Assembly: GCA_013298595.1 (NCBI GenBank)
Contig: JAAFIG010000010.1
Coordinates: 62,001-126,000, forward strand
DNA: 64,000 nt
Source: Deinococcales bacterium
GTDB lineage: Bacteria; Deinococcota; Deinococci; Deinococcales; JAAFIG01
Reading direction: 5' to 3'
Shown here: piece after piece, positions 50,029 to 51,720 of the stretch
Position numbering within the stretch: position 1 is the first letter of the stretch
How the letters are laid out: the number at the start of each line of letters is the position of its first letter
Notes under the pieces: model-generated
Told to the model about the DNA's origin: nothing
The model's input: only the letters and a program-made list of their open reading frames with translations
Database searches by the model: none
Translations under genes and position numbers: made by a program

Positions 50029-50198
50029 GATGAAACCTCGAGGGTTGATTTGCCCAGAAAATTGATGATTCAAAAATATTTGTAGAATTACTAAAATATA
50101 CAAAGTATTTTGAATATCGTCAAGTTGGGCATCAAGTCGTATTTGCTCCATTGCGTTCGAGTTATTCAATGGCTTGACATGAATGGGGTTACCTCGAG

Positions 50199-50237
50199 AA
50201 AACAATGCCGCCATCAATCGGATGGCGGCATTGTTTT
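50199..50237. terminator. Strong bidirectional terminator after the rhodopsin operon
   Basis: A 17-bp perfect stem (AAAACAATGCCGCCATC with its complement), loop AATCG, followed by T-runs on both strands. It ends the small membrane gene 6 nt away. Confidence 0.9.
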
Positions 50238-50243
50238 TTGTGT

Positions 50244-50456
50244 TTACTTGGTATTTGTACTCAGCGTGTATATGTACCCAACCAACAGCGCCATCAGCCC
50301 AAAATAGACCAAGCGCAAGCCAATCAGATTTTCGCCACCAAAACCAATAAAGTAATCAAAAGCCAGTGTTAGCAACACCAAAGCGCCTAAAGCAAAACCA
50401 ATCGCATTTTGATTCTGAACCACAAATTGACGTACCAAAACTTGGGTCATGTTCAA
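50244..50456 (-). CDS. Small two-helix membrane protein coupled to rhodopsin
   Basis: The 70 residues form two membrane helices (about 20-34 and 47-63) with a short acidic linker. No family is recognised. Its ATG overlaps the rhodopsin stop (ATGA), so the two are made in fixed proportion. A subunit, insertion factor or light-protein partner is plausible. Confidence 0.65.
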   Translation of the reverse strand: MNMTQVLVRQFVVQNQNAIGFALGALVLLTLAFDYFIGFGGENLIGLRLVYFGLMALLVGYIYTLSTNTK

Positions 50457-51304
50457 TCACCTGCCACTACTAACTTGCTTGCGCCTACTTTATTTTCGTT
50501 ATCAACACGGGTTTTCTCGAGAGCAATAAAGTAAATCAGCGTACCGAAACCAGCTTTGGCAATAATATCGGCAAGGCTATACCCAACTTGTAAAGCAACA
50601 ATGCCAGTGGCGGATAAAGCACCAAAAACCAAAGGTAGCAGGTAAGCGATTGGGTAGAAACCCCATGATCCAAACAATAATAAACGCAAGTTGCCCATCA
50701 GCAATTGAACTCGAGGCGGTTGGCTTTGTAAGGATTTACCAAGTTCAACAAACAAGGTGTAGATGATGTACAAGAATGGGATGGTGCTGAGCGTACCCCA
50801 GAGTAAACGGGTGCCAGTATCGGTTGAAACTTCGCCTGGATAACCCAGAACGATCATTGCTAAAGCTGCCACAACCAAACGTCCAATCATGCCTGAAGCG
50901 ATGTTGCTGGCAAGCGCCAATACCGCAACTGCTTCGACCAACAACAATGGCACGGTCAGCACCCAATCGGCATAACGGTAAGCATCGTTGAATGGAATGC
51001 CTGTGGCTTTGTAAACACCATCCACAAAAGCATAGGATTCTTTCCAAGATTCAAAAATTCGCACGTAATGATAACAAGCGACTGCCACCACCAACGCCGA
51101 AACAAGCATGGCGGGTTGGTACTTTGCACTGAGATTTTGTTTGCCCAGCACAAAGAAAATAAAAGCTGCTCCCATACAGGCAATAGCAATTGACAGCAAT
51201 TGGTAAACCAAACCAAATTGACCTGCGCTAAGCTCGAGTGGAGCAGCCAGTGCTGAACTGCTCAGTAAGGCTGCAACTGTAACTCCTAAGACCGATTTTT
51301 TCAT
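50453..51304 (-). CDS. Light-driven proton-pumping rhodopsin, xanthorhodopsin-like
   Basis: The 283 residues have a cleavable signal peptide (MKKSVLGVTVAALLSSSALA) and seven helices. Helix C reads RYADWVLTVPLLLVE: Asp acceptor, Thr and Glu donor match the DTE motif of outward proton pumps, and Leu two residues after Pro suggests green absorption. A His in CYHYVRIFESW fits the acceptor partner of proteorhodopsin. LWGTLSTIPFLY in helix E keeps the Gly whose small side chain opens a window for a carotenoid antenna. The retinal Lys is in ADIIAKAGFG. GGAGG precedes ATG 51304. Retinal or carotenoid genes are not adjacent. Confidence 0.9.
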   Translation of the reverse strand: MKKSVLGVTVAALLSSSALAAPLELSAGQFGLVYQLLSIAIACMGAAFIFFVLGKQNLSAKYQPAMLVSALVVAVACYHYVRIFESWKESYAFVDGVYKATGIPFNDAYRYADWVLTVPLLLVEAVAVLALASNIASGMIGRLVVAALAMIVLGYPGEVSTDTGTRLLWGTLSTIPFLYIIYTLFVELGKSLQSQPPRVQLLMGNLRLLLFGSWGFYPIAYLLPLVFGALSATGIVALQVGYSLADIIAKAGFGTLIYFIALEKTRVDNENKVGASKLVVAGD

Positions 51305-51720
51305 ATTTTCTCCTCCATATACATCTCGGGTCAAAAAGGCAGGTAAACCTAACCCCAAGCTAGGTTTTTCTAAAGCAATGCCTTTATGACTAATAAAATA
51401 CTATTCCTCGAGATTGCCTAAGCACAGTTCAAGCGGATACCATTTCTTTTATGTATGCGTGTATATTCAAATGTACTTCGAGTTACCGAAAAACCTATTT
51501 TGCCAAAGTTTACATGTACTGTATGGCTAAAATAAGTTGTCCCTGAAAGCCCAAAAGCTATTTTAAGAAGGGTAGCCTTGCGATACCTTAGTTGTGTTTG
51601 TAATGCTGACCTTGTTATGGTCAAATACGAGCAAAAATTGTGTCTTTTTTCGCATTGACCTACTACATCTAGCGTTTACAAAAACGCTGACCTCGAGCAG
51701 CAGTATGCTAGACTAATACA
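51305..51720. other. 416-bp regulatory gap between rhodopsin and ftsK
   Basis: No convincing gene. It must hold the rhodopsin promoter (minus strand) and the ftsK promoter: TAGACT at 51709-51714 lies 6 nt before the ftsK ATG. A 7-bp inverted repeat, AGCGTTT-ACAA-AAACGCT (51671-51688), sits just upstream of it. The rhodopsin -10 is not evident. Confidence 0.5.

Follow-up and report, generated by a model that had tools for sequence, protein, structure and literature searches.

Light-driven proton pumps are, to our knowledge, generally regarded as single-protein machines, and we know of no small partner in the structures of xanthorhodopsin (XR), Gloeobacter rhodopsin, Kin4B8, psXR or thermophilic rhodopsin. 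The closest described small protein is that encoded by bap, named by Sharma et al. in 2007 for an ORF of 50–70 amino acids that is predicted to encode a two-pass membrane protein and is frequently linked to, and co-transferred with, haloarchaeal bacteriorhodopsin genes (PMC1885257). The authors liken the product to the membrane-embedded portion of Htr transducers and suggest a transient role in insertion; Bap (bacterio-opsin associated protein, VNG1468H/OE3107F) is described as occurring solely alongside rhodopsins (PMC1885257, PMC3184054). The Htr transducers themselves provide a further comparison, the two-helix membrane part of SrHtrI being encoded beside, and binding, the rhodopsin SrSRI (PMC3274258), and pHtrII and its rhodopsin joining in a 2:2 complex (PMC12917780). 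A preliminary description of the DNA studied here had held that no small subunit was described for pumps of this kind. That statement fails on the haloarchaeal precedent, Bap being a described small two-pass protein encoded behind bacteriorhodopsin (PMC1885257, PMC3184054). For a bacterial proton-pumping rhodopsin, no report of a small partner was recognised in the open-licence PMC literature searched, as far as its text was available.

The window, a 64-kb stretch of Deinococcales DNA, carries a rhodopsin gene with a small membrane protein gene directly behind it (Table 1). The rhodopsin belongs to Pfam Bac_rhodopsin PF01036 (130 bits, E 1.2e-37), and its best PDB sequence matches were psXR, Gloeobacter rhodopsin, XR, Kin4B8 and thermophilic rhodopsin, with which it has fold and motif set in common. 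An AlphaFold2 model built from 12 sequences (pLDDT 81.7) was matched by Foldseek to psXR (rmsd 1.2, TMt 0.96) and 3ddl_A (0.93), the structural matches having 49–58% identity. In the printed alignments D113, T117, E124, H79, K250 and G170 correspond to XR positions 96, 100, 107, 62, 240 and 156. D113, T117 and E124 form the DTE pump motif, H79 is the His near the acceptor and K250 the retinal lysine of the rhodopsin fold, and the pump motif set is complete. Both the XR Gly156 and Tyr207 equivalents of the carotenoid site are present (G170 and Y221); PMC12308411 puts the glycine first among the criteria and names the tyrosine as a further residue of importance. The antenna-type pump claimed in the preliminary description from the DTE motif and the window Gly was thus borne out at the level of motifs, which justify the term 'antenna-type' and would at most predict carotenoid use. 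Outward proton pumping and energy transfer from carotenoid to retinal are what such a residue set would suggest. We read the N terminus of the rhodopsin as a signal-peptide-like stretch.

Table 1. Features of the rhodopsin locus, in positions of the 64-kb window.
Feature	Position	Strand	Details
Shine-Dalgarno-like GGAGGAG	51310..51316	minus	5' of rhodopsin ATG
Rhodopsin gene	51304..50453	minus	283 aa; ATG 51304-51302, stop 50455-50453
Stop/start junction	50448..50456	minus	TGA, 2 nt, ATG; or TTG overlapping TGA
Small two-helix membrane protein gene	50450..50244	minus	68 aa from ATG 50450; alternative TTG 50456 gives 70 aa
Hairpin with A/T tracts	50197..50239	unassigned (.)	19 pairs; 4 nt past the small gene's stop

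The preliminary description had the rhodopsin stop overlapping the start of a 70-residue ORF. This holds if translation begins at TTG 50456; since AGGTG lies 7 nt 5' of ATG 50450, the ATG seems the likelier start, and the literal stop/start overlap is therefore optional. Four of the five loci at which the pair was found (see below) have a start no more than 8 nt from the rhodopsin stop. In G016, the fifth, the probable ATG comes 17 nt past it, with its own GGAGG, and an overlapping TTG is found there too. The operon probably consists of just the rhodopsin and the small gene, because the upstream neighbour, which we read from its ORF as an FtsK-like gene, is divergent and the 19-pair hairpin follows so closely downstream. 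This hairpin, which the terminator scanner calls for the plus strand only, would serve as the terminator of the rhodopsin operon; the region holds three terminator-like sites against 2.3 expected from shuffles, the other two having 5 pairs each. An Rfam scan of the window returned zero families at gathering score.

The small gene is real and not a chance ORF, because four diverged homologs are found elsewhere, each directly behind a rhodopsin, and because of its codon-position pattern: in all 10 pairs, codon position 2 was conserved best and position 3 least. Pairwise identity among the five members was 34–54%, or 36–57% with trimmed starts, and the members as trimmed are 68–75 residues long. 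The five-row alignment contains twelve invariant positions, including G18, A30, D32, R46, Y49 and Y59 (P0002 numbering). All five proteins have two hydrophobic stretches and a net positive charge over the first 17 residues, and the last 10 residues are net positive or neutral in each. Modelling of 69 residues predicted, at low confidence (pLDDT 67.9, pTM 0.36), a surface helix followed by a hairpin of two long helices (15–36 and 43–67). Foldseek returned 14 matches to this hairpin model, the best at E 4.2, and so no meaningful fold match. No family in Pfam or NCBIfam reached its cut-off, and the best PHROG match was at E 0.026.

Rhodopsins were found in 29 of the 111 Deinococcota genomes and convincing homologs of the small gene in five, all five directly behind a rhodopsin, starting within 17 nt of its stop. 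The carriers are all four genomes of family f1, namely the window's own and three more, together with G016 of the sister family f2; the three other f2 genomes listed have neither rhodopsin nor small gene. Named copies, in Deinococcales MAGs, are on JAAFJQ010000014.1, JACMOA010000297.1, JANXTZ010000044.1 and JANYHH010000084.1. The other 24 rhodopsin-bearing genomes gave no small-gene homolog. Weak matches in G045 (E 0.0037, 21 positions) and G056 (E 0.008, 40 positions; another place, E 0.057), which fell in frames of 181–449 amino acids in genomes without a rhodopsin match, were taken as chance. The unlinked small gene that the preliminary description had named as evidence to the contrary was therefore not found in the relatives, and its rhodopsin-linked two-helix protein stood up as a conserved one, the hairpin itself coming from a low-confidence model. 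When the five neighbourhoods (9.5–18 kb) were compared by blastp at 1e-5, they had in common only the pair, frames that overlap it and two matches between other ORFs (35% over 156 amino acids and 22% over 160). The two genes thus remain side by side in surroundings that are otherwise unlike.

A wider sample of 71 rhodopsin loci (L014–L056, L072–L099) yielded 68 usable and 61 distinct rhodopsins, 57 of them with at least 250 nt downstream. An ORF of 45–120 residues with two hydrophobic stretches within 60 nt behind the rhodopsin was present for exactly the five, and absent for the remaining 52 of the 57. As background, 9 of 134 ORFs of at least 150 amino acids had such a small two-helix ORF behind them, and 7 of these 9 were the pair or its shadow frames. 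No such ORF was seen at loci L057–L066, which lie outside the 57 (L066 without a usable rhodopsin), at the fragments L100 and L101, or behind the bop gene of a Haloplanus rallus plasmid. Outside the clade of five, 42 of 56 distinct rhodopsins carry the same Trp-Gly carotenoid-window motif; taken with the 52 of 57 that lack the small ORF, this means that an antenna-type pump as such can do without the small gene.

The plasmids and viral contigs searched contained no homolog of the small protein. Searches at E up to 0.001 gave no match in 396 genomes of the phylum to which the Ilumatobacteraceae locus L051 belongs (at most 14 candidates scored per genome), nor in 368 of the phylum that includes the Bacteriovoracaceae locus L048, an empty answer that, with no positive genome in either set, shows nothing. 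At the Bacteriovoracaceae locus (L080, the same locus as L048) the rhodopsin is followed, 88 nt past its stop, by a different hydrophobic ORF of 69 amino acids, which showed no similarity in a profile comparison (hhalign probability 0.2%) and has one hydrophobic stretch at the threshold used.

In the rhodopsin tree (59 rows, two fragments dropped, with a long-branch warning elsewhere in the tree) the five form one clade with support 100/99, and the small-gene label needs a single change. The rhodopsin of G016, from family f2, nests among those of family f1, in line with the two genes having been transferred together. The G016 rhodopsin contig has a GC content of 0.54, against 0.56–0.57 in three other stretches of its genome, and a density of the palindrome CTCGAG of 6.6 per kb against 7.8–12.3; this composition makes a binning error less likely. 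Eight clade-specific positions were compared with 44 related rhodopsins, 12 distant or partial rows having been dropped; Q35, I39, V75 and F259 are invariant in the five-member clade and occur in at most 2 of the 44. Gln35 stands where all 44 related rhodopsins outside the clade have Asn. Phe259 takes the place of what is mostly Ala or Trp, Phe being found in 1 of the 44.

The reading we favour, with a probability of about 0.6, is that the small protein is a dedicated partner of the pump that docks to it in the membrane and helps its insertion, assembly or stability, perhaps remaining as a lasting subunit. The two-gene operon would then encode a xanthorhodopsin-clade pump that moves protons outward, together with a membrane partner of its own. 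The latter is probably a helical hairpin of N-in/C-in topology whose N terminus forms a short surface helix of positive charge. Translation of the hairpin would be coupled to that of the pump, beside which it would insert, packing on the pump's lipid-facing helices as the Htr two-helix part does on sensory rhodopsins and as proposed for haloarchaeal Bap. From there it could help the pump to insert, to assemble into oligomers or to remain stable, and possibly persist as a subunit. A functional link between the two proteins is likely; the five loci belong to one clade and are not fully independent, which counts against the partner reading. So do the 52 of 57 distinct rhodopsins that lack the small gene, the faster evolution of the small protein than of the pump (36–57% against 64–83% identity), the weak correlation of their distances given below, and the low confidence of the hairpin model, with its lack of a meaningful fold match.

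The hairpin is best read, by analogy, as a bacterial counterpart of the Bap or Htr hairpin. Compared by description, the window protein resembles Bap in size (68 against 50–70 amino acids), in its two predicted helices and in the placement of its gene behind a rhodopsin gene and only with one. It differs in setting: Bap is archaeal and encoded beside bacteriorhodopsin, often with the Cdc48-like bac, whereas the present protein is bacterial and encoded beside an antenna-type pump. No Cdc48-like bac, which is associated with Bap but not strictly defining, was recognised by eye in the ORF lists among the immediate neighbours. The Bap precedent strengthens the finding, as bacteria with an antenna-type pump seem to have a comparable arrangement. 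If the partner reading is true, hairpin partners in bacteria and haloarchaea would make a small membrane partner a recurring element in rhodopsin biogenesis or function, and the pair would be a tractable two-gene cassette for testing the role of Bap-like proteins in E. coli.

That the small gene is instead a passenger, encoding a membrane protein of unrelated function that shares the operon by chance, is unlikely. All known copies, five loci, go with one rhodopsin clade, so that common descent accounts for part of the linkage. Moreover, when small-protein and pump distances are compared across the five loci, the correlation is weak (r 0.41, a value equalled or exceeded in 20 of 120 relabellings). 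Against this, the pair has been kept in five different neighbourhoods and two families while small-protein identity fell as low as 36%, and the genomes searched contained no convincing copy away from a rhodopsin.

A stronger form of the partner reading, that the hairpin is a permanent second subunit lying by the carotenoid window or between protomers, where it would tune carotenoid binding or pumping, and that it evolved independently of Bap, also seems improbable. We know of no earlier subunit of this sort in a proton-pumping rhodopsin from bacteria. Rather doubtful, too, is a role as antenna holder, in which the hairpin would cover the carotenoid groove by the window glycine and fix or deliver the carotenoid, giving a two-protein light-harvesting unit. 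Retention of both XR-type site residues and the presence of a phytoene synthase in the window's genome are in keeping with it. The Kin4B8 carotenoid-site residues named in PMC13093654 are Gly153, Thr157, Tyr204, Ser208 and Tyr209. The first three are kept in the window rhodopsin as G170, T174 and Y221, the threonine being a further point in favour, but the other two, as read from the alignment, are replaced by L225 and F227, so that two of five site residues have changed. Moreover, XR and Kin4B8 are described there as binding carotenoid themselves (PMC13093654), the Trp-Gly motif is common outside the clade where the small gene is missing, and no feature of the hairpin points to pigment binding.

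As a two-helix membrane protein encoded beside a rhodopsin, as in SrSRI–SrHtrI, the small protein might also be thought of as a shortened transducer that reads the photocycle of the pump and relays it to another protein in the manner of Htr. This is very improbable. The window protein ends 2 residues past its second modelled helix, and the other four at most 8 alignment columns further, leaving no HAMP or signalling domain and no cytoplasmic domain after the helix; its neighbour, with the full motif set, is by motif a pump and not a sensor. The PDB holds Htr chains, and the family profile found zero PDB sequence matches at E up to 10.

Gene position gives the small protein a likeness to the Blh/Brp beta-carotene dioxygenases: behind at least nine xanthorhodopsin-type genes (L086–L093, L098) the next ORF, often overlapping, is Blh-like with a PHGALD-like motif, in the very place that the small gene occupies here. 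Neither of the retinal-forming families Blh (PF15461) and RPE65 (PF03055) was matched in the five pair-bearing genomes (G000–G003 and G016, the last only 58% complete), the PF15461 search having matched 2 of 21 genomes (no control genome) and that with PF03055 0 of 21 (2 control genomes). That the small protein stands in for Blh as a supplier or carrier of retinal is nevertheless the least probable reading of all, as a comparison with 13 rhodopsin-linked Blh-like ORFs gave an hhalign probability of 0.5%, which also disposes of a Blh fragment or retinal-enzyme remnant, the protein has 68 residues and no invariant histidine, and a genome of the Thermaceae family (G019, f5) has a rhodopsin with neither a PF15461 match nor the small gene. 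The single-contig genome G009 of family f3 has four rhodopsin matches on its contig (C1), one of which immediately precedes a Blh match that is split in two.

The window is also rich in the palindrome CTCGAG, which occurs 388 times in the 64 kb against a mean of 5.95 in 100 dinucleotide shuffles (largest 14). It is the only 6-base palindrome more than 3-fold enriched in the window, and stands 32-fold over base composition. No flanking base is fixed, and the enrichment is just as strong in the inner pentamers (highest-order Markov expectation 324). In comparison samples (L102–L107, L117–L119, L121–L128), the density of CTCGAG per kb was 5.5–7.4 in family f1 together with the window and 6.6–12.3 in G016, at GC contents of 0.45–0.61; it was 3.1 in G008 and 0.07–1.1 in G004, G005 and G007. 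The repeat looks like a highly iterated palindrome of the type known from cyanobacteria as HIP1.
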